Origin: a virus
Reading direction: 5' to 3' (one strand)
Length of the DNA stretch: 64,000 nt
Virus record (IMG/VR): IMGVR_UViG_3300020183_000040
Span: 1 to 64,000 of that record
Numbering within the stretch: the stretch's first letter is position 1; every line of letters starts with the position of its first letter. Both the position numbers and the translations under genes were made by a program. Shown in pieces: positions 7,396 to 35,858 of this stretch. The notes under the pieces were generated by a model, which worked only from the letters and a program-made list of their open reading frames with translations, was not told the DNA's origin and searched no databases.

Positions 7396-7844
7396 TGGCA
7401 AGTTTCTATTACGGAGAACCTACAAAAATTATAACTGGGAAGGAGGTAGTCCCTCTCAGCAAGAGTTTTCGTGATATTGACATTGCCTTTACACCTCATC
7501 CATCTACTGAAGATGTTTCAAGTAAATATAATGATCAAGCAATCAAGCAATCGCTAAAAAACTTGATCATGACCACTCCAGGGGAAAGATTTTATGAACC
7601 TGATTATGGTTGCCAAGTTAGTCGATTGTTATTTGAACCACTAGATGCATTTTTGTCAGATCAAGTGAAAAATGAAATACTAAATACAGTTGAACGTTTT
7701 GATCCGAGAGTATTACTTATTGACGTAACCGTAACTCCAGAATATGACCAATATTTCTTGTTCGTTGAAATAGTCTATAGAATTGTAGGACAAGCACTAA
7801 CCCAAGAGTTGAATTTCATTCTAGAAACACCAGTCCAAGCATAA
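7395..7844 (+). CDS. 25: Baseplate wedge protein gp25
   Basis: This is the gp25/W-like wedge subunit that joins the inner baseplate to the sheath; it is universal in contractile systems. The 149 residues (T4 gp25 has 132) show the family's core: SFRDIDIAFTPHP near the N-terminus, then IKQSLKNLIMTTPGERFYEPDYGC with the conserved 'tpGER...P.yG' motif, and LLFEPLD, the EPR-type signature region. Its start overlaps the previous stop, and its own stop overlaps the gp6 start (TAATG), as expected for partners in the wedge heterotrimer. Confidence 0.92.
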   Translation: MASFYYGEPTKIITGKEVVPLSKSFRDIDIAFTPHPSTEDVSSKYNDQAIKQSLKNLIMTTPGERFYEPDYGCQVSRLLFEPLDAFLSDQVKNEILNTVERFDPRVLLIDVTVTPEYDQYFLFVEIVYRIVGQALTQELNFILETPVQA

Positions 7845-9982
7845 TGCAACCTACTAACCTAACATCTATCAATTTTGATGATATCAAATCATCAATCAAA
7901 TCATATCTAAGAACTCGGACTGAGTTTACAGATTATGATTTTGATGGGTCTGCATTATCCTATCTAATTGATATTCTTGCATATAATACTTATTATTCAG
8001 CATTCACTGCAAACATGCTGATCAATGAGTCATTTATACACAGTGCCACTATGAGGAGCAATATTGCTGCCATAGCAAAAATGCTGAACTATGTTCCTAA
8101 ATCTAGGACTAGTGCAAAAGTGTGCATAAAACTTACAATACCAAAAGCAACACTCTGCCCTGATACTACATACCCTCTTTCTGTAACTCTTGATAGAGGA
8201 CCAGTTTTAGCAGCAAAAAGTTTCGTATTCAATACCCTTACAGAAAGAACAGTACAAGTGGATAGTCTGGGGGTAGCAGTTTTTGATAAAATGCTTCTTT
8301 ATGAAGGAACTCTTGTTGATTTTGAATATACTGTAGATACATTTCGTAGACAAAGGTTTGTTATTCCAAACAGTGATGTAGATATTGATACGTTACAAGT
8401 ATTTGTAAAACCTAATGCTCAATCTACTAGCATTGACTCATACATCGAATCGACAAATATTACAGATGTTGACTCAACATCAAGAATTTATCACATCAAT
8501 GAGGGTCCAGACCTTAGATATGAAATATTCTTTGGTGACGGTACAATTGGTAGAAAATTGAAAGATGGTGAAATTATTATTCTACGTTATGCTGTCAGCA
8601 GTGGAGAGGCTGCAAATGATGTTCTAAATGCAACTTACGTTGGAAGATTGGTGGATAGTTGTGGTCATGAATATGATGCAGACGAAATAGATATTGAAAT
8701 TCTTGGTAAATCTCAAGAAGGGTCTGAAAGAGAGAGCGTAGAATCTATCAAATACAATGCACCTAGATTTTTTGCTGCTCAAAATAGAGCAGTAACTACA
8801 ACTGACTATGAGACTTTGGTTAGAAAAGTCTATCCAAACACTACAGCTGCAGTTGCTTATGGTGGCGAAAATCTAAAACCAGCAGTTTATGGTAAAGTCT
8901 TTATTTCGTTAGCAACTGTTTCTGGGCAAAAATTGAATGATACAATAAAAGATGAAATCTCTAAGGGTATGCAAAAGTATACTGTAGGTGCCCTAGAAGT
9001 TGTTGTCAAAGATCCAATATATCTTTATATTATTGCGAGAATTTTTGTAACATTTGATCAAAATAAAACTTCCCTAACAAATGCTCAAATTCAAAATAAA
9101 GCAATTGAAGCTGCAGAGCAATTTGCAAAACAATCTAACCTGAATAATTTTTCAGGTATATTTTCTACAACAAAACTAATCAAAGCTGTTAGTTTGGCAG
9201 ATCCCTCTATCGATGGCGTATCAACACAAACTTTACTTCTAAAGTATATTGAAACTAATCCAAATATAGTAGATTCGCACCAAGTTTTGTTTGGTACAGA
9301 ACTACTTGATAGTGCTCCATCTCAGAAAAATGTAGCATGTGATAAAGAAGGCGTTATACAAGGTGGACCGCTGTATGTCGATAGTGATCCAGACAAGCCT
9401 CTGTTTTTTACAGATGATGGAAAAGGAAAGATCTATCTTTATTATGACGATGGTGGCAATAAAGTAGTTGTTGAACCAAACTTTGGCACTGTAAACTACA
9501 AAACAGGCGAAGTGAATGTCGGACCAGTAAATATCGTAGGCGATGGTAATAACGTTCCACAGTTGCTCGACCCCGACGCCGATACTGAGGGTCTAACTAC
9601 GATCCCAGGACCAGGCGCTGATGGTGGGGGTGTTGGTGATGGCGGCGGCGGTGGAGAAGGCGCTGGTGGCGATGATACTGGCACTGGAGGAGGCGGCGGC
9701 GGTGGCAGCAACAACTTCGGAATTGGATCTAATCCACTGTCTATACCTGTTGTTGCAATTCCTGCCAACTCCAGCACTATTCTGCCAACCACTCCAGGAA
9801 CTATTATGGCATTTCCAACGGTTGATATTACTGTTGCACCTATAACTGCTACACCACCTCCAACCATTCCACTAAATAATATCAATCCAGGACAGTTTAT
9901 TACTCCTCCACCTGTTGTCATAATTCCTCCAAAGACAGCAGACTTCATAACCCCTGGCGTCGATATCAAAGGTTGCTTCTAA
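7844..9982 (+). CDS. 6: Baseplate wedge protein gp6
   Basis: gp6 (the J-protein relative) forms the ring of the wedge that triggers contraction. The N-terminus (INFDDIKSSIKSYLRTRTEFTDYDFDGSALSYLIDILAYNTYYSAF) is typical of the cyanophage gp6 family, and the order 25-6 is as in T4. It is 712 aa, compared with 660 in T4. From about residue 590 it carries a Gly-rich stretch (GGGVGDGGGGGEGAGG and GTGGGGGGGS) and then about 80 Pro/Thr/Ile-rich residues, which T4 gp6 lacks. This tail may be a flexible anchor to the giant protein encoded next. Confidence 0.9.
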   Translation: MQPTNLTSINFDDIKSSIKSYLRTRTEFTDYDFDGSALSYLIDILAYNTYYSAFTANMLINESFIHSATMRSNIAAIAKMLNYVPKSRTSAKVCIKLTIPKATLCPDTTYPLSVTLDRGPVLAAKSFVFNTLTERTVQVDSLGVAVFDKMLLYEGTLVDFEYTVDTFRRQRFVIPNSDVDIDTLQVFVKPNAQSTSIDSYIESTNITDVDSTSRIYHINEGPDLRYEIFFGDGTIGRKLKDGEIIILRYAVSSGEAANDVLNATYVGRLVDSCGHEYDADEIDIEILGKSQEGSERESVESIKYNAPRFFAAQNRAVTTTDYETLVRKVYPNTTAAVAYGGENLKPAVYGKVFISLATVSGQKLNDTIKDEISKGMQKYTVGALEVVVKDPIYLYIIARIFVTFDQNKTSLTNAQIQNKAIEAAEQFAKQSNLNNFSGIFSTTKLIKAVSLADPSIDGVSTQTLLLKYIETNPNIVDSHQVLFGTELLDSAPSQKNVACDKEGVIQGGPLYVDSDPDKPLFFTDDGKGKIYLYYDDGGNKVVVEPNFGTVNYKTGEVNVGPVNIVGDGNNVPQLLDPDADTEGLTTIPGPGADGGGVGDGGGGGEGAGGDDTGTGGGGGGGSNNFGIGSNPLSIPVVAIPANSSTILPTTPGTIMAFPTVDITVAPITATPPPTIPLNNINPGQFITPPPVVIIPPKTADFITPGVDIKGCF
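9614..9712 (+). repeat. Low-complexity GGC/GGT tract in gp6
   Basis: About 100 bases of GGN-rich DNA encode the glycine linker near residues 591-623 of gp6. Local GC is far above the surrounding gene. It resembles the glycine linker in the 1024-aa protein. Confidence 0.6.
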
Positions 9983-12900: not shown

Positions 12901-15900
12901 CATGGTCTCCTTGTTGGAGATGCAGTTACAATTTATGGTGCAAACCCTATTGTTTATAACGGAACATTTCGTGTAATTTCTATCAACCCAGATAATAAAA
13001 AAGAGTTTCAGTATCAAACCCTAAGCGATACTGGAAACATTGTTCCTCAGGGTAGTATTCTTGTTTCAATTGATTTGAATAAAGGTAGGTCTAGTAGTGA
13101 TTCGATCTATAATCAAATCAAGTATTACACAGTAAACGTTCAAAATGCATTTTTTGATCAGAATTATGTTTACGTTGCTTCAACTGGACTTCCAAACTAC
13201 AATATTGGTCCTTTTGGTACATCTGCACTAATTCCAGGTAATCAAAGAAAACTCAATAGATTTTTTCTAAACCCACAAACAATTTCATCTAAATCAAAGG
13301 TTACTCCTGGTGCAGTTGGAACATTTGTAAACGGAGTTTCTGTTTGGTCATATATCTCCAAAGAACAAAAAACATTTGGACCAGTTACTTCTATTTCAGT
13401 AACTAAAAACGGTCAAGATTATGATGCTGATAATCCACCTGTAATGACCATTTCAACTAGAACTGGAGAGACTGGTTCTGGTGCTAAGGGAGTTGTCATC
13501 GTTGATGGTAGCATCACTTCAGTTGAAGTAACCGATACAGGGTCAGGATATACTACAGTCCCTCTTGTGTCTATTGTTGGAGGAAATGGTTCTGGCGCTG
13601 CGGCAACGGCAATTATTTCTCAAGGTAAAGTTACTCAGATTCTAGTTACATCTGGAGGAACTGGTTACACTAATAGACCGTCTATTAGTATTTCAGGTGG
13701 GGGAGGATCAGGTGCTACAGCAGAAGCAAAAGTTCGTGGACCGATCAAAAGTGTTACTGTAAGTCAATCTGGATCTTCTTACAGTTCAAGTCCAGTTGTA
13801 TCTGTAAGTTCTGGTCAAGGTGCTCTTGCTCAACCAATTATTAGCAATGGACGTATCATTTCTATCGCAATCATCAATGCTGGAACTGGATATACAACAC
13901 CTCCTAACGTTTTCATTACTGGATCTGGATTTGGTGCTGTTGCAAGAGCAGTTATTGATACTGATGGAGAAAATGCTGGACGTGTAACTAGCATTTCAAT
14001 TGTAAACAGAGGTATTGGATATAGTTTAGGAACAACAAATATCAACCTAGTATCTGTCGGTACTGGGGCTGAGTTCACAGCAGATGTGTTCAAATGGACC
14101 TATAATCTCCAGGAAACTCTAGATACTGATTCTGTAAATGGGTATGTGTTCGATGGTTATAATACACAGTATGGTGGTGAATATGGACATGTATCAAATC
14201 CTCAAAGATTGAGATATGTTCTTGGTGATAGTGTTATTGAAAATGAGCAAACAGGAAATCTTTCTGAATCTGATCCACAAACTGCTGGAATTGAACACTC
14301 TCCTATTATTGGTTGGGCATATGATGGCAACCCCATTTATGGTCCATATGGATATTCAGATCCAACTGATCAGGGATCTGAAATTCAACGTATGATCACT
14401 AGTTATAAATTGAAGGATAATATTGTCTACAATGCACTTTCTAATCCAAATCCATCTAGAATTGATGGACCTCCATTGGATATTTGGGCTGCTGGTCAAT
14501 TTATTGAAGATTATGAGTATGTTTTTGGTCAAGGAGACTTGGATCAATATAATGGACGTTTTTGCAAAACTCCAGATTATCCAAATGGGACATATGCATA
14601 CTTTATAACTATGGAAGGAAATGCGGCAGGTACACCAGTATTTCCATATATTATTGGACCATCATACAACTCCATTGTTGATGAATGGAATCTAAATCGT
14701 AATGCAGTACAACAAAATATTCCTAAGGGGGTAATCAGATACAGAGATCCATTTGAAAGTGTAGATATTGATGTTGAAAGAAAACCAAATGCAGAATCTG
14801 ATACTATCACAACTGAATCTGGAGATCTCATCGTATTTGAAGTAGCAGATGAAAATGGTGATGGCATCATTGATCAATCTGAGCAGAACAATCCACCTAC
14901 TTTAGAAGAAGAATCTATTCTAGAAATATTTGATTATTTTCCAAGGATTCAATTTGATTCAAGAGTTGATATTGAAGTAGAGACAACTACTAAGTTTGAA
15001 GAAGCTAAAGTCACTGGTTTTCTCATTGAAAATCCAGGAGAAAGCTATCAGGTAAATGATAGACTCGTATTTGATAATGAAAATACTGGAGGATCTGGAG
15101 TTGCAGCTGAAGTTTCCTCAATTCAAGGCAAATCCATTGAATCTTACACATTTGAAACTATCAATGATATTCCTTATGGTGTAATTACAACTGATGAACC
15201 ACATGAAATTACTTATGGAGATAAAGTTGATATTCTTTACGAACCACAACTAGCAAATTCTACAAAACAACTAAAAGTTAGAGTTGTAAAAGGTATTGAA
15301 AAAATTACAGTACAAACTCCTGGGACTGGATACAATAAAGATGTTCCTATCGAAATTTCAATTGATGGAGATGGAATTGATGCAGAAATTAGTCCTGTAA
15401 TCAATCCTACTAATGGGACAATTACTGAATTTGAAATTTTGAATTCTGGTAGTGGGTTTACAAAAAATCCAAGAATTCTAATCTCACACCCGCAATCCCT
15501 GAAAAAAGCAGACTATTTTATTGCATCTTTACAAAATCAAAATAATGTAAAAGTTTTAGATATGTATGTAACTAGCAACAAAGTTACATATGTTTGTGGT
15601 GAAACAGTTGACTCAACTGGAAATGTTGTTGGTTTTGCTACAAAGTACTCTGCTCTTGGAGTAAAGCAGTGGAGTAAGACGTTTAGTTCGAAAAATCCTG
15701 TTGGAGGATTTAGGCAACTTAGATTGAAAAAATTAGCTTTCTATAATACAAAACTATATGTTGTTGGAGAAGTACATCCAAATATTACAACCCAAACAAA
15801 TTACAATCCAGATGTATTTTTTGCACGTTTGGATGAATCTGCAGATGGTCTTTCAGCATCTGTTGGTTTTAGCAAAGGTATTGCAGGTATTTCTGGATCT

Positions 15901-28541: not shown

Positions 28542-29495
28542 ATGGCAATATCAACTACTACTGCACAAATATCACAGGGTGATCTGGTAATCAATACAAA
28601 TGGTTTACCAGATCCAGCTTTATCTGGAAATCCTCTTGGATCTAGAAGATTTCCAGGAAATCCACCAATTGTAATTGAAGGATATGACCTAGAGTACAGA
28701 TTTACATATCGTGCAGGGCAATCTCAAGATCTTCCAAGCCCACAAGCACTAACGTTAGAGGTTCTTGGTATTGCACTAAATGGAGTAGCTATAGCTGGTC
28801 CTGCATCTCCTCCTGGACCATTACCAGGAACTACAACTAATCCTCCAACTGGATTCACATATAATAGAGTTTTCAACGAAGATCGATTTGGAGTAGATAT
28901 TTGTGGTGGTTATTGCTGCCATTTGACTCTGGAAGATGATGATACTGAATTTGAACAATATCGATATCATTCTGGATCATTTTTAGTGAACTGTTGGGGA
29001 TCTAAAGTTATTGCATCAAATACATATTTCCAATCATCAAATTACCAAGGAGATTATTTTCGCCATCCAGATGGGCATTCAAAAATTGTAGGATATTGTT
29101 TTGATGGATATCCGATATATGGACCATTTGGTTATAGAACTCCTAGTGATCCTCGAAGTGAACCTATCAAAATGCGAAGCTCTTATAGACCATTCCCATC
29201 ACCTAGGATAGGAAGAGAATCTAATTATAGTCAAATTCCTCCAGGCACGTACATTCAAGATTTTGAATATGTAGAAAATCTTGGAACTCTAGATCAATAT
29301 AATGGGAGATATACAAAAACTCCAGACTATCCAACTGGTACATATGCTTACTTCTTAGCATTAGATAAACAAAACAGACCAGTTTATCCATATATTTTTG
29401 GTAAGGAAACTCGCAAAACCAGAGATTGTAGTTGTGTTGGTACAGATGATCATGACCATGAGCATGATGATCATGACCATGAGCATGATGACTAA
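28542..29495 (+). CDS. YHYH-domain virion protein with His/Asp tail, 317 aa
   Basis: This is a structural protein next to the baseplate genes. Residues about 130-290 form a YHYH domain: EQYRYHSG, then GHSKIVGYCFDGYPIYGPFGY and LDQYNGRYTKTPDYPTGTYAYF. Related copies lie in the giant protein and in the 1178-aa protein. The N-terminal 110 residues are Pro/Gly-rich beta sequence. A Cys pair (CSC) precedes a C-terminal DHDHEHD repeat that could bind metal. The YHYH family has no established function that I know of. The gene is separated from the giant gene by 23 bases and is followed by a late promoter. Confidence 0.75.
   Translation: MAISTTTAQISQGDLVINTNGLPDPALSGNPLGSRRFPGNPPIVIEGYDLEYRFTYRAGQSQDLPSPQALTLEVLGIALNGVAIAGPASPPGPLPGTTTNPPTGFTYNRVFNEDRFGVDICGGYCCHLTLEDDDTEFEQYRYHSGSFLVNCWGSKVIASNTYFQSSNYQGDYFRHPDGHSKIVGYCFDGYPIYGPFGYRTPSDPRSEPIKMRSSYRPFPSPRIGRESNYSQIPPGTYIQDFEYVENLGTLDQYNGRYTKTPDYPTGTYAYFLALDKQNRPVYPYIFGKETRKTRDCSCVGTDDHDHEHDDHDHEHDD
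29445..29492 (+). repeat. 21-base tandem repeat encoding DDHDHEH
   Basis: Two exact 21-base units (29445-29465 and 29466-29486), starting gatgatcatgaccatgag, plus a partial third. Each unit encodes Asp-Asp-His-Asp-His-Glu-His. The exact DNA identity suggests a recent duplication. Confidence 0.9.
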
Positions 29496-29523: not shown

Positions 29524-30744
29524 ATGGCCAAGCAATCCCTGAATACTGGTTCTGTGCCTAATGATGGTACAGGCGACTCCCTGAGAGCAGGGGCAACTAA
29601 GATCAATTCCAATTTCACTGAGATATATGGTGCAATTGGCAATGGGAATAGCTTGACACTAAATGCTACTAATGCACAAATTGGTCAAGTGTTGAGGTGG
29701 AACGGCAGTTCATTTATTTCTCAGGATTATGGATCACTTACATCAACTCTAGATGTAAATAATTACAGCATCATCTCAAGTAGTAATGGTCATATTGTTC
29801 TAGACCCAAATGGCACTGGTGATGTGCAGATGGTCTATGGGGGACAGACAACTACGTTTGATGGTTCTACTGGTCAGGCACAAGTTAGTGGGACAATTTC
29901 ATACAAAAATGAATATCCTTTGATTACAAATGCTCCAACTAATTCGACACACAAAGGTTATTTTTTCACAGTAAATGGTGACAATAACCCAAAAGTCAAT
30001 ATGGGAATCAGTGGAGTTGGAGACGTAACCGCTAATCTCCTAACCAATTATAGTAGTATCAATCTACTTTCAGATGTAGATACTACAACTACAGCTCCTA
30101 CTACAGGGCAAGTTCTAAAATGGAATGGAACTAACTGGACTCCTCAAGCAGACGCTGCAGGAGCTTCTACACAAAATCTTTTCCAAACAATAGTTGCTGA
30201 TACAGGATCTACCACTGCAAATACTCCAACAGATTCTTTGACAATTACTGGTGGAACAAATTGCACCTCTGTCATCACAGGAGATACTGTTACTATCAAT
30301 GTTGATGGTCAGTTTCAATTTGCATCACTGACTGATGTAAACTTTACTAATCTCTCAAGAGGACAAAGTATCACATATGATACAACTGGAGGAGGAGCAA
30401 CTGCTGCTTGGATCAATCAACCATCTCCAACACTATGGTACATTTTCTCAGTTGGATTGAATAATAACTCATATCTAGTTGAGGGTCCTGGGCAATCACA
30501 AACAGATGACCCCGAGCTTCATTTGTATAGAGGATTTACATACGTCTTCGTAAATAATGCTGGAAATAATCACCCACTAAGGATTCAAGCTTCAACTGGA
30601 CTATCTGCCTCTGCATATACCATTGGTGTTTCTGGTTCTCAAACGGGAAGGCAATATTTCACTGTTCCGCATAGTGCTCCAAATACCCTTTATTATCAAT
30701 GTACAGTTCACCTAAACATGGGTGGAATTTTATACATCAAGTAA
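29524..30744 (+). CDS. Virion fibre-like protein with C-terminal cupredoxin-like domain, 406 aa
   Basis: The N-terminus (AKQSLNTGSVPNDGTGDSLRAG) and TKINSNFTEIYGAIG form a segment I recall from cyanophage tail and fibre proteins. The middle contains two 'GQVLRWNG / GQVLKWNG' fibre-shaft-like repeats. Residues about 300-406 look like a small cupredoxin: a strand pattern with NNHPLRI (His350) and YYQCTVHLNMGG (Cys393, His396, Met399). These four residues correspond to a type 1 copper ligand set (His, Cys, His, Met), although the Cys-x2-His-x2-Met loop is shorter than in plastocyanin. A late promoter lies directly upstream. Copper binding is inferred, not shown. Confidence 0.7.
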   Translation: MAKQSLNTGSVPNDGTGDSLRAGATKINSNFTEIYGAIGNGNSLTLNATNAQIGQVLRWNGSSFISQDYGSLTSTLDVNNYSIISSSNGHIVLDPNGTGDVQMVYGGQTTTFDGSTGQAQVSGTISYKNEYPLITNAPTNSTHKGYFFTVNGDNNPKVNMGISGVGDVTANLLTNYSSINLLSDVDTTTTAPTTGQVLKWNGTNWTPQADAAGASTQNLFQTIVADTGSTTANTPTDSLTITGGTNCTSVITGDTVTINVDGQFQFASLTDVNFTNLSRGQSITYDTTGGGATAAWINQPSPTLWYIFSVGLNNNSYLVEGPGQSQTDDPELHLYRGFTYVFVNNAGNNHPLRIQASTGLSASAYTIGVSGSQTGRQYFTVPHSAPNTLYYQCTVHLNMGGILYIK

Positions 30745-30753
30745 TAATATAAT

Positions 30754-33700
30754 ATGGCAAGAGTAGTTCCTGGATCTGGTGCAGTAATCAAACCAAACTT
30801 CAATAAAGAATTTGGTGTAGTTTCTGTTGACGTTATTTCTGGTGGGAAAAACTACTCAAGTGCGGATCCTCCCAGGCTAACAATTGATAACTGTGGTACT
30901 CCCGAACAAGAAGCTCTTCTTTGGCCTCAGATTGATTCAAAATCTGGAAAAATTTTATACGTTAGAGTTCTAGAATCTGGCAAAGGTTATGACCCACTCA
31001 GAGTTACAATCACTCCTAAGCAAGATTCCATTACAGTTGTAAATTCATTTGATCCCAATAGAATTTGGGTATCTGCAAATACGTCTGTTACTACTGGTAG
31101 ATTTTCTCAATATGACAGACTAAAAGTAAAAACAAATGGACTTCCAGATCCAGCTCCATACGATAAAGATGGAGTTTTCTCGATTCCATATGATCATACT
31201 TTTATTTTTAGGGGAGGTAAAGATGTACCGAATCTAGGATTGAGAGATACTTATAATGATCAAGCACTCGGTATTATGGCAAACGGAGTTGAACTCCATA
31301 CTCCAGATTTTTACGATATTGATTCAGTAAATACAATATCCAATTATAGTTATGATGTTGTAAAAACACCATCTTTACTTAGTTTAGACCAATATGGTGG
31401 CACCACTAGTCAAGACAATGCCCTGGATGGAAAATATTTTTATACAAACTCCCGATTACTTTTAGCCTATGCAGCAGCAGGCAGCACATATCATATTGCT
31501 CCATATTACAAAAATAGTAATTATCAAGGAGATCGTGGAAGACATCCCAATGGTCACTCAAAAATTGTTGGATATTCATATGATGGGTATCCAATCTATG
31601 GTCCATATGGATATGCGGATCCTTTGGTTAGTAGCACTGTAACTAATCTTCAACCGTCGTATAGACTAAGAAACACATCAGAAACTGCAGCTATAAGACC
31701 TGCTGTAGTTACGCCATCTACTGTCACATATACAGTTACAGTTGCTCCAGGTGTTCTTTCAGCAGGGCAACCAGGTATAAATCGTTATTACATTACTGGG
31801 GGTGGATTTACAAATGAAGAAAAACCATTTCTAAATCTTCAAAGGGGAAGTACATATATTTTCAATCAAGATGATCCGACTAATACTACACATCCAATAT
31901 TATTTTCTCCATATGGATCTAGTGTCGCTCAAGGTTGGCATACATCAGGACAAACTGCTGGAGATGTAAATGCCCTTTGGAGACAAGGTGTAAAATATTT
32001 TATTGGAAATGCACAAGTTACATATAGTACATATGTTTCAAGTTTCAATAGTGCATCTCTACGTAGAGTTGAATTCACAGTCCCTATAGAAGCTCCGACT
32101 ATTCTATATTATTTTTGCTATAACCATACAAACATGGCAGAAAAAATTGTTGTAGATGGTTATCCAAATGGAACATTTATTCAAGACAATATTTACATCG
32201 AAGGTCTTGGTGATTTAGATGAGTTCAATGGAAGATATTGTAAAACTCCAGAATATCCAAACGGAACTTACGCATATTTTGCAACAGTTGATGCAAACCA
32301 AAATCCAATTTATCCATATTTTATTGCAACTAAATTCTATGGTGAAGAGTATCTTCCTGGATCTACTCTACCTGAGGTATCTTTAGATACTCCAAGTGGT
32401 GCCAGTGCCATAGCAGTTATAAATCCAGACAATACAAATGGCGAAATTCAATATATTGGAATGAAATCAAACGGTGATGGATATTTTGGAGATGCTAGAG
32501 TAGATATTCTTGGTGGTGAAGGTAGTGGAGCAACTGCAAACGCAGTAACAAGAAGTGTTACTGGACTATCACTGATTTCTGAAGGAAAAAATTATCTCAG
32601 TCCTCCAAATATATTCTTCCAAGGTGGCGGCGGGCAGGGAGCAAAAGGTGTTGCCTCTATTGATCCAGCTGGAAAACTTACTAGTGTAACAATCAATAAT
32701 CCTGGTCAATATTATAATACTCCACCATACATTATTGTTGATGGGGGTGGAGGAATCGGTGCTAAAGCAGAAGCAATTATTTCCCAGGGTAAACTAACTG
32801 GTGTTGTTATTACAGATCCTGGAAGTGGGTATGTATCGCCACCAAAAATTATTTTTACAAAACTAGCCACTCTCAAGAGAAAGGTACGTAATCGTCAGGC
32901 GTATGACTCTATAAACTTCAATCTATGCGGTCTTGCAGCTCCAGTAAATGTCAGTCAGACTTCTATCTTTGTTGATAGTACAGATGCATTTCCTGGTTCT
33001 GGAACTTTGATGATTGATAATGAAATTATTAGATATAATTCTAAATCAGCAGGTAGATTTACAGGCATTAGTAGAGCAGTAAATTTCCGATTTGACCAAA
33101 GAGTAATCCTTGATGATGATCAAAATGATCCAGTAACGGGAGACTCTACATATCAATTTGTCGTTGGAGATAGAGTAGTTAGGAGAGTTGACAATGCTTC
33201 TAATAAAATTGCAATTGTTTATGACTGGAAACCAGATACTAGAGAACTGTTTGTAAAATTTCAAGTAGATGATTTGGCGTTTATTGATGCTGGCATTCCA
33301 TCATCTGAAGAAAGAACTATTACATTTGATGCGGGAATTGCAGAATCTTCTCTTGCTGCACAATTACCACACACTACGGAAGTTAGTGATGGAGATTTTA
33401 TTCGACTCTTTGTAGGCGACCCAGTTTTTGGTGCAAAAGTTACACCTCAAGTAGTTCTAACCGATACTAAATACGTAGATGACAATGACGATGGTATACC
33501 TGATCTAATCAATACTGGCACTGCATTCGCAAACCAAATTGCTCTAGATGGTGGTAAATACAATTCACTTTATGGTATTGAAGAAACAATCGGTGGAACT
33601 AATACGACACTGTTCCAACTTGGAGATGGCATTTCTGATGCAAGCACTCCAACAAAAATTGCAACAGTTGATGTTGCTGGAGCTCTTGGTGATGGAATTG

Positions 33701-34290
33701 AACATAATGCAGATCTTACCATTACTCTAGATTCTAGATATAATAATACTCAAACCTTCTTCTCGGGTGAGTTGATTGAAGGAGAACAATCTGGTATTAC
33801 GGCAGAAGTAGTAGAGTTCAAACCCAGTACTCGTGAACTAATTCTTACTGATGTAACTGCATTTGATACTGGAAATGTAAACCTAGGAGTCAATGGTAAA
33901 TATTATACATTCTCCAGAAACTCAAGTATCATTGGTATCAAAGTAGTTCAACCAGGAACAAACTATACTTTGCCGCCAATAATTACTATTCAATCCATGC
34001 CAACTGGTGTTTCTGCCTATGCGACAGCTGTGATGAGTCCTTCTGGAGATCAAATTGCATCTGTAACAATGACTGTTGAGGGATATGGCTATGAGCAATA
34101 TGTCGATCCTGCCACAGAAATATTATATCCTACCATCACGGTGACAAATGCTCCTGGTGATACCACTGGTACTGGAGCAGTTTTAGAGGCAATTGTTGGC
34201 GGAGAATTTATTGTTGGTAATAATGGAGCACGTTGGAGAGTTGAGAAAATTGAGTATCAAACTCTTATCAGAAATGAGTTCTCTACATAG
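30754..34290 (+). CDS. Modular virion protein with YHYH domain split by a cupredoxin, 1178 aa
   Basis: Residues about 1-90 start with GSGY-like repeats (ISGGKNYSSADPP). Residues about 250-310 are the first half of a YHYH domain (GHSKIVGYSYDGYPIYGPYGY). Residues about 320-465 are a cupredoxin-like domain with THPI (His380) and YYFCYNHTNM (Cys455, His458, Met461). Residues about 468-530 are the second half of the YHYH domain (LDEFNGRYCKTPEYPNGTYAYF). GSGY repeats follow at 545-705, then a 'FVDSTDAFPGSGTLMIDNEIIRY' module and beta-rich sequence to the end. It is probably a peripheral baseplate or fibre-attachment protein. It starts nine bases after the previous stop, so it is likely co-transcribed from the promoter at 29499. 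Confidence 0.7.
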   Translation: MARVVPGSGAVIKPNFNKEFGVVSVDVISGGKNYSSADPPRLTIDNCGTPEQEALLWPQIDSKSGKILYVRVLESGKGYDPLRVTITPKQDSITVVNSFDPNRIWVSANTSVTTGRFSQYDRLKVKTNGLPDPAPYDKDGVFSIPYDHTFIFRGGKDVPNLGLRDTYNDQALGIMANGVELHTPDFYDIDSVNTISNYSYDVVKTPSLLSLDQYGGTTSQDNALDGKYFYTNSRLLLAYAAAGSTYHIAPYYKNSNYQGDRGRHPNGHSKIVGYSYDGYPIYGPYGYADPLVSSTVTNLQPSYRLRNTSETAAIRPAVVTPSTVTYTVTVAPGVLSAGQPGINRYYITGGGFTNEEKPFLNLQRGSTYIFNQDDPTNTTHPILFSPYGSSVAQGWHTSGQTAGDVNALWRQGVKYFIGNAQVTYSTYVSSFNSASLRRVEFTVPIEAPTILYYFCYNHTNMAEKIVVDGYPNGTFIQDNIYIEGLGDLDEFNGRYCKTPEYPNGTYAYFATVDANQNPIYPYFIATKFYGEEYLPGSTLPEVSLDTPSGASAIAVINPDNTNGEIQYIGMKSNGDGYFGDARVDILGGEGSGATANAVTRSVTGLSLISEGKNYLSPPNIFFQGGGGQGAKGVASIDPAGKLTSVTINNPGQYYNTPPYIIVDGGGGIGAKAEAIISQGKLTGVVITDPGSGYVSPPKIIFTKLATLKRKVRNRQAYDSINFNLCGLAAPVNVSQTSIFVDSTDAFPGSGTLMIDNEIIRYNSKSAGRFTGISRAVNFRFDQRVILDDDQNDPVTGDSTYQFVVGDRVVRRVDNASNKIAIVYDWKPDTRELFVKFQVDDLAFIDAGIPSSEERTITFDAGIAESSLAAQLPHTTEVSDGDFIRLFVGDPVFGAKVTPQVVLTDTKYVDDNDDGIPDLINTGTAFANQIALDGGKYNSLYGIEETIGGTNTTLFQLGDGISDASTPTKIATVDVAGALGDGIEHNADLTITLDSRYNNTQTFFSGELIEGEQSGITAEVVEFKPSTRELILTDVTAFDTGNVNLGVNGKYYTFSRNSSIIGIKVVQPGTNYTLPPIITIQSMPTGVSAYATAVMSPSGDQIASVTMTVEGYGYEQYVDPATEILYPTITVTNAPGDTTGTGAVLEAIVGGEFIVGNNGARWRVEKIEYQTLIRNEFST

Positions 34291-34325: not shown

Positions 34326-35858
34326 ATGGCAGCTCTACTTACTGATCAATTTAGGATCTTCTCTGCAAAAAAGTTTATCAAATCTCTTGAGGGACCATCA
34401 AGCACCCAATCGGATGCAGCTGCAGGTGCTAGTAGGGATCGTCTATATGTTTTTATCGGTAGACCCCAACAATGGGATAATGAAAACTCCCCACCACAAG
34501 CTATCGATTCCTTTGATCAGTTTTCGGATTCTTACGATGATATGATTTCATTGAAAAGAGTTCTAGCATCTGATACCATTCAAGTAGTTAGAAGAATTGA
34601 CTGGACTCCACCAGAGCAAACTACGGGTGGTTTGGGATTTACGTATGACATGTATAGACATGATTATTCGCCAACAAATACTGCATCTTCTGGAGCAACT
34701 AAACTATATGATGCTGATTTTTACGTGGTAAATACAAACTACCAAGTTTATAAGTGTATTTACAACGGAACTTCTCCTTCAGATCCAAATGGAAAACCAT
34801 CGACTATCGAACCAACTGGTACTTCTACTTCTATTATCACCACTGCTGATGGTTATCGTTGGAAGTATATGTATACCATCCCAGTGGCACAGGTTCTGAA
34901 ATTCTTCTCAAATGAATACATGCCAGTGTTCTCTAATGAATCAGTGGTTTCTAATGCAGTTTCTGGAGAAATTGATACCGTAGTAATTACATCTTCAGGT
35001 TCTGGATATAATAATGGAACCTATGATAATATTTCAATTGCTGGAGATGGAGTTGGTGGGAGAGTTTCAATTGTTATTGACGGCGGTAAGATCATTGCTG
35101 CTACTGTAACTTCGGGTGGTACTGGGTATACATTTGCTAAAATTAGTGTCGATACAATTTCAGGTATTGGTACTGGTAGTGCGGGTCAAATTGATATTGT
35201 AACCCCTCCTCCTGGTGGGCATGGATTTGATCCAATTTTTGAACTTGGTGCATACCGAGTAATGGTAAATGCAAAACTTTCATATGATGAAGGTGCTGGA
35301 GACTTTCCTGTAGATAACGACTATAGGAGGGTAGGTCTTTGTGTAAATCCACTTAGATATGGAACTACTGAACTGTTGGCAGATCTAACTGTATCTGCAT
35401 CAAGAGCAGTTATTTTTGCCCAAACTTTCCAGGGTAATTTTCTCCCAGATGAAATTATCAGTCAAACACGTATCGTTGGTGGTGCATCTGTTACATCCCG
35501 TGGACGAGTAATCTCGTGGAATCCAACAACCAAGGTGCTGAAGTACTATCAAAATAGAATTGACGGTATTTACCCAGAAATCATTGGATCATTGAATGAG
35601 TTTGATGGATCTAATCCAATCGTAGGTGCTACCTCAGGTTCATCTGCAGAACCAGAAATTGTATTTCCTAGCGTACCAAATACATCTTCTCGTGTTATCA
35701 ATGGCACTGAATATGATCTTGGTATGAGATTCACTTCAGGTTATGCAAAACCAGAAATTTCTTTCAACACGGGAGAGATTATTTACCTAGATAATAGAAG
35801 ATCAATTAGTCGTGCAAGCGACCAAATTGAAGATATCAAAATTGTAATCGAGTTCTAA
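34326..35858 (+). CDS. 8: Baseplate wedge protein gp8
   Basis: gp8 is a dimeric wedge subunit bound to gp10, gp7 and gp6 in T4. The N-terminus (LLTDQFRIFSAKKFIKSL), the RLYVFIGRPQQW segment and DADFYVVNTNYQVYKCIYNG with TTADGYRWKYMYTI are typical of gp8 in cyanophages. It is 510 aa, compared with 334 in T4. Much of the increase lies in an inserted region of residues about 215-300 with two GSGY-type modules (TSSGSGYNNGTYD, SGGTGYTFAKI). A 'GGASVTSRGRVISW' module follows near residue 390. It starts downstream of an exact late promoter. Confidence 0.85.
   Translation: MAALLTDQFRIFSAKKFIKSLEGPSSTQSDAAAGASRDRLYVFIGRPQQWDNENSPPQAIDSFDQFSDSYDDMISLKRVLASDTIQVVRRIDWTPPEQTTGGLGFTYDMYRHDYSPTNTASSGATKLYDADFYVVNTNYQVYKCIYNGTSPSDPNGKPSTIEPTGTSTSIITTADGYRWKYMYTIPVAQVLKFFSNEYMPVFSNESVVSNAVSGEIDTVVITSSGSGYNNGTYDNISIAGDGVGGRVSIVIDGGKIIAATVTSGGTGYTFAKISVDTISGIGTGSAGQIDIVTPPPGGHGFDPIFELGAYRVMVNAKLSYDEGAGDFPVDNDYRRVGLCVNPLRYGTTELLADLTVSASRAVIFAQTFQGNFLPDEIISQTRIVGGASVTSRGRVISWNPTTKVLKYYQNRIDGIYPEIIGSLNEFDGSNPIVGATSGSSAEPEIVFPSVPNTSSRVINGTEYDLGMRFTSGYAKPEISFNTGEIIYLDNRRSISRASDQIEDIKIVIEF

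Follow-up and report, generated by a model that had tools for sequence, protein, structure and literature searches.

A cupredoxin-like domain nested in the YHYH domain of a cyanophage baseplate wedge protein carries a predicted type 1 copper ligand set

The cupredoxins and the YHYH domain are already known as families, and the protein described here, in which a domain of the first kind interrupts one of the second, has been grouped in PHROGs. The YHYH domain (PF14240) has been proposed to be a tail-associated metal-dependent hydrolase (PMC7824862). Iron binding by a tail fibre and the Ferrojan horse idea have been discussed for a marine phage (PMC11705849). Searches of open-licence literature, judged by titles and abstracts, turned up no paper on a cupredoxin in a cyanophage baseplate or a phage tail, and a cupredoxin is named in none of the phrog_708 family records examined.

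The window analysed, a stretch of 64,000 nucleotides, comes from a virus record of 85,186 bases and holds T4-like cyanophage structural genes, among them gp6 (7844-9982), gp9 (29524..30744, plus strand) and gp8 (34326-35858). The host of the nested domain is an ORF of 1178 aa (30754..34290, plus strand) with gp8 as its downstream neighbour. Its PHROG match is phrog_708, 'baseplate wedge subunit', with a score of 1521, and its homologues in S-ShM2 and Syn19 (T4-GC 399) and in Syn9 (BSV9_gp103) sit between gp9 and gp8 and are annotated 'baseplate wedge subunit'. The nearest named relatives are S-ShM2, S-RIM14 and S-SSM2, at about 61% across the whole ORF; S-ShM2 and S-SSM2 belong to the genus Ahtivirus of the Kyanoviridae. 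In some records the homologues are named gp7 or baseplate wedge initiator. The annotation of S-ShM2 (L086, 2341-4062 and 5347-8901) places the name gp7 on an unbroken YHYH protein, whereas other records put it on the nested homologue, and one of these two conflicting names is probably wrong. No sequence match to T4 gp7 was found with the ORF or with a profile of its C-terminal half, a PDB search with both queries gave no match, and neither did a search of NCBIfam. The ORF is treated here as gp7-like, its equivalence to T4 gp7 being drawn from gene order, PHROG and annotation.

PF14240 matches the wedge protein in two pieces, profile positions 20-134 (aa 169-313; 31258..31692, plus strand) and 138-185 (aa 467-515; 32152..32298, plus strand). 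Between them 153 residues intervene, while only 3 of the 193 profile positions are missing. The whole match scores 88.8 bits and the pieces 46.9 and 50.7, each exceeding the family's curated threshold of 25 bits. The window's remaining two YHYH domains, used for comparison, are continuous: one lies in a 6181-aa structural protein (14071..14622, plus strand; profile 47-185) and one in a 317-aa protein (28755..29366, plus strand; profile 19-183). HMMs built from relatives read the wedge protein in the order yn2-cup-yc and the other two as yn2-yc, with cup absent, and the insertion point corresponds to a loop that spans about 20-27 residues where the domain is unbroken. The first-pass annotation had described an interrupted YHYH domain, an insertion into a loop and two uninterrupted copies elsewhere in the window; all three descriptions hold, its coordinates for the continuous copies being approximate but right. 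The 317-aa protein also has a His/Asp-rich C-terminal tail, DDHDHEHDDHDHEHDD (29445-29492), which is absent from the homologue in L001.

The same annotation had suggested that both domains may bind metal, which is doubtful for the YHYH domain of this protein. His264, His268 and Asp277 are retained, but at the position of the final His of the signature YHYH the four single-insert rows have Thr231, whereas 4/4 unbroken copies, including that of the 317-aa protein, have His there. The interrupted copy thus lacks the complete signature His set of the proposed metal-dependent hydrolase, and its metal site, as read from the aligned residues, is probably incomplete. Because this signature His is lost, only the cupredoxin looks metal-competent in the wedge protein.

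The inserted segment (aa 314-466; 31693..32151, plus strand; HMM core about 31717-32160) is delimited by the PF14240 gap, the fold match and the HMM of the relatives. An AlphaFold2 model from a 60-row alignment that included fragments reached a mean pLDDT of 69; a second model, from a cleaner but smaller alignment of 30 full rows, was worse (mean pLDDT 54). In the 60-row model the blocks of the insert mostly lie at pLDDT 70-97, with two at 54 and 61. The best Foldseek match of the insert was AcoP (5.8e-05), plastocyanin following at 4.8e-04, and all 25 matches at E<=0.001 were cupredoxins or cupredoxin-domain proteins (among them AcoP, plastocyanin, nitrite reductase, laccases and factor VIII). 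VIA-align against solved cupredoxins gave Z values of 7.3-7.8, below 8, over model residues 166-318. The reading of the middle segment as a cupredoxin is therefore borne out by the model, and a cupredoxin fold is well supported as a prediction. For the YHYH part, which the first-pass annotation supposed to stay foldable around the insert, the first ~110 residues were of low confidence in both models; the conserved stretch that closes the first half, and the second half, reached pLDDT of about 73-92 in the better one. Matches in BFVD extended up to 350 columns and included some YHYH proteins, but with TM <=0.32 and high rmsd.

The four residues singled out by the first-pass annotation proved exact. 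His380 (codon 31891..31893, plus strand), which is His in all aligned single-insert relatives, and Cys455, His458 and Met461 (codons within 32116..32136, plus strand; C-x2-H-x2-M) make up a complete type 1 copper set in the order and register of cupredoxins, with amicyanin-like spacing. Across the proteins of the window, ~19,000 residues in all, the motif C-x2-H-x2-M occurs twice, whereas shuffled sequences lead one to expect 0.024 occurrences; the two are the cupredoxins of the wedge protein and of gp9. None of the Pfam copper families matched the phage cupredoxins at cut-off; PF00127 (plastocyanin/azurin) gave no match for the window insert, and the best phage copy scored 18.8 bits against a cut-off of 21.2. 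Directly after the first His ligand most copies have Pro, whereas Asn or Ser is usual at this place in blue copper proteins, so the copper site may differ from the usual blue copper site. We regard copper binding by the ligand-bearing cupredoxins as likely.

The adjacent gp9, a baseplate wedge tail fibre connector of 406 aa identified by phrog_677 and the T4 gp9/10 N-terminal domain (PF07880), ends in a homologous domain (30403..30741, plus strand), found by alignment and profile searches. Its ligands His350, Cys393, His396 and Met399 align in register with those of amicyanin, also via the family profile, and are invariant in 29/29 aligned rows with 43-82% identity to the first row. Profile comparison of the insert with the gp9 domain gave a probability of 96%. 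The At5g54830-like family PF25489 matched gp9 domains weakly, at best with 0.0019. At an E value of 0.01, 333 of 50,697 phage records contained the gp9 domain, nearly all of them phages of Synechococcus or Prochlorococcus; relaxing the E value to 10 raised the number to 350, with a few phages of Pelagibacter and Methylophilales among the newcomers. When bacterial genomes were scanned, a single relative turned up, a Rhodopirellula MAG contig (L100) that encodes gp9 with the cupredoxin and is probably a piece of phage DNA that was binned into the MAG. Fibre-like proteins of the podoviruses P-GSP1 (L098, 2977-3339) and P-SCSP2 (L099, 2968-3345) carry a cupredoxin with C-x2-H-x2-M in their N-terminal region, and cyanophage PSS2 has a stand-alone copy without the ligands. 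The domain thus spans phages of different families and hardly leaves the phages of marine cyanobacteria.

A search for the nested form elsewhere found it in all 80 relatives from viral_contigs, a search that used peptide patterns taken partly from the insert and so favours insert-bearing relatives; named cyanophages, retrieved instead by a search with the whole ORF, have it as well. Relatives of the insert occur in gp9 and in further tail proteins, so that, contrary to what had been supposed, it is not 'foreign' in this genome. Most of the relatives are wedge proteins of ~1390-1550 aa with an additional cupredoxin upstream of the nested one. We call the insertion loop of the window protein site B and the earlier YHYH loop that holds the upstream copy site A; site A lies after a further ~90 residues, between the part with the YHYH motif and the part HSKI..DGYPIYGP. 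The insert and the site A cupredoxin are related with a probability of 93.5% in profile comparison, and a PDB search with the site A profile returned only antibody-like chance matches.

In these wedge proteins with both sites filled, site A keeps all four ligands without exception (31/31 rows, 52-70% identity to the first row), while at site B the Cys is lost in 22/22 aligned rows, being S, G or A, and the other ligands are mostly gone. The forms with site B only, which in the alignment are the window protein and three contigs, keep C-x2-H-x2-M there. Among named phages, S-ShM2, S-SSM2, S-SSM4, S-SSM6b and ACG-2014d have one C-x2-H-x2-M, at site B, and Syn9, S-H25 and Syn19 have the motif upstream only. 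The clade of the window is thus one without the upstream copy, whose nested copy keeps its ligands. A motif count over the contigs agreed: each of the 50 wedge-class ORFs having an upstream copy showed the motif at A and not at B, three single forms showed it at B, and five larger proteins (2616-3308 aa) held both motifs. In these larger proteins, as read by eye, the downstream copy sits at a third point, between EDFEYAG and GDLDKRNGRY. These structural proteins (L003, L007, L009, L012 and L028) have several cupredoxins, two of them inserted in one YHYH domain and both with C-x2-H-x2-M. In some wedge proteins (L030, L040, L042, L048 and L060) a further cupredoxin-like copy, the third, precedes the usual upstream one.

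In an unrooted tree of the C-terminal part, from which the nested region was excluded, the ligand states of A and B split on one branch with a support of 100/100. Many separate ligand losses at site B were considered and rejected on this ground. Because of the single-branch split, the change of site is counted as at least one event and not as many, and the complementarity of A and B likewise represents one event rather than many independent ones.

Taken together, these results show that the YHYH domain of the cyanophage wedge protein carries a loop-inserted domain of predicted cupredoxin fold with a full type 1 ligand set, and that gp9 ends in another; we lean towards an explanation in which both serve as copper-stabilised docking modules. 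Each ligand-bearing cupredoxin, in the insert and in gp9, would bind a single copper ion; stabilised by the metal, the beta-sandwich would act as a rigid module for interactions at the periphery of the baseplate, which is where T4 has its gp7 and gp9. Such a module may dock the wedge, the fibre connector, the fibres or the host surface. The YHYH domain here is probably a scaffold and not a metal site. The wedge protein seems to require one cupredoxin competent for copper, at a place that can vary: the competent copy would be at site B in the clade of the window and at site A in most other cyanophages, where site B is ligand-less. A broader reading, to which we give a little less than an even chance, is that the virions of marine cyanophages are copper proteins, with real blue copper sites at the baseplate in gp9 and in one cupredoxin of each wedge protein, that YHYH loops repeatedly accept cupredoxins, and that the copper site moved from one loop to another in evolution.

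Other explanations have to be set against the docking module. The domain could be a purely structural beta-sandwich decoration, used as Ig-like domains are, with the ligand set as a remnant or a metal-free polar cluster. The existence of ligand-less copies, at site B of many cyanophage wedge proteins and standing alone in PSS2, indicates that the fold works without metal. However, the copies that keep their ligands retain all four (29/29 at 43-82% identity and 31/31 at 52-70%), and one Cys, two His and one Met in cupredoxin register have no obvious metal-free use; we regard a purely structural role as unlikely. A redox-active domain would account for the complete and strictly conserved type 1 sets that gp9 and one cupredoxin of each wedge protein possess, as well as for near confinement to phages of cyanobacteria: a blue copper site could exchange electrons and sense the redox state of the host surface or periplasm, or touch plastocyanin or cytochrome partners, and so trigger or time the baseplate switch. 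Its partner and electron path are not known, however, and the domains are outside the cell before infection, which makes this role rather improbable.

A copper Trojan horse, in which copper on the tail lures a receptor that the host uses for copper uptake, is the least probable of these explanations and, in our judgement, very unlikely. An iron analogue, the Ferrojan horse, has been discussed for the tail fibre of a marine phage (PMC11705849), and the copper version would fit the presence of the domains on tail proteins, including the fibre-like proteins of the podoviruses P-GSP1 and P-SCSP2. Against it, neither the wedge nor the connector protein is the tip of a fibre, and copper is toxic to these hosts. 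Nor do we know of any such copper receptor in marine Synechococcus.

The nested arrangement recurs in many published cyanophages, whose tails may therefore carry copper. A T4-like baseplate has six wedges. Should copper occupy the sites, viruses that are common in the ocean would carry a redox metal, in many copies, at the part of the tail with which infection begins. Phage entry would then be linked to a metal that is needed by, yet toxic to, Synechococcus and Prochlorococcus. The locus is also a clear case of nesting at more than one loop of a single host domain, with one copy keeping its ligands and the other having lost them.

The protein can be compared with several known systems. Like the Ferrojan horse domains, its cupredoxin is predicted to bind metal on the tail of a marine phage, but the predicted metal differs. 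Compared with the YHYH family, both pieces of the window copy exceed the PF14240 cut-off and His264, His268 and Asp277 are kept, but the copy is broken by 153 residues and has Thr231 for the last signature His. The phrog_708 wedge subunits are full-length homologues that share the order gp9 - wedge gene - gp8; most of them have a second, upstream cupredoxin, and the window protein is without one. With the cupredoxins (amicyanin, plastocyanin, AcoP and rusticyanin) the insert shares the fold, by structure comparison, and the ligand order H...C-x2-H-x2-M with amicyanin-like spacing; unlike them, the phage domain mostly has Pro after its first His and scores under the Pfam copper-family cut-offs. 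Those cupredoxins are free electron carriers, whereas the phage domain is one module of a virion protein and lies within another domain.
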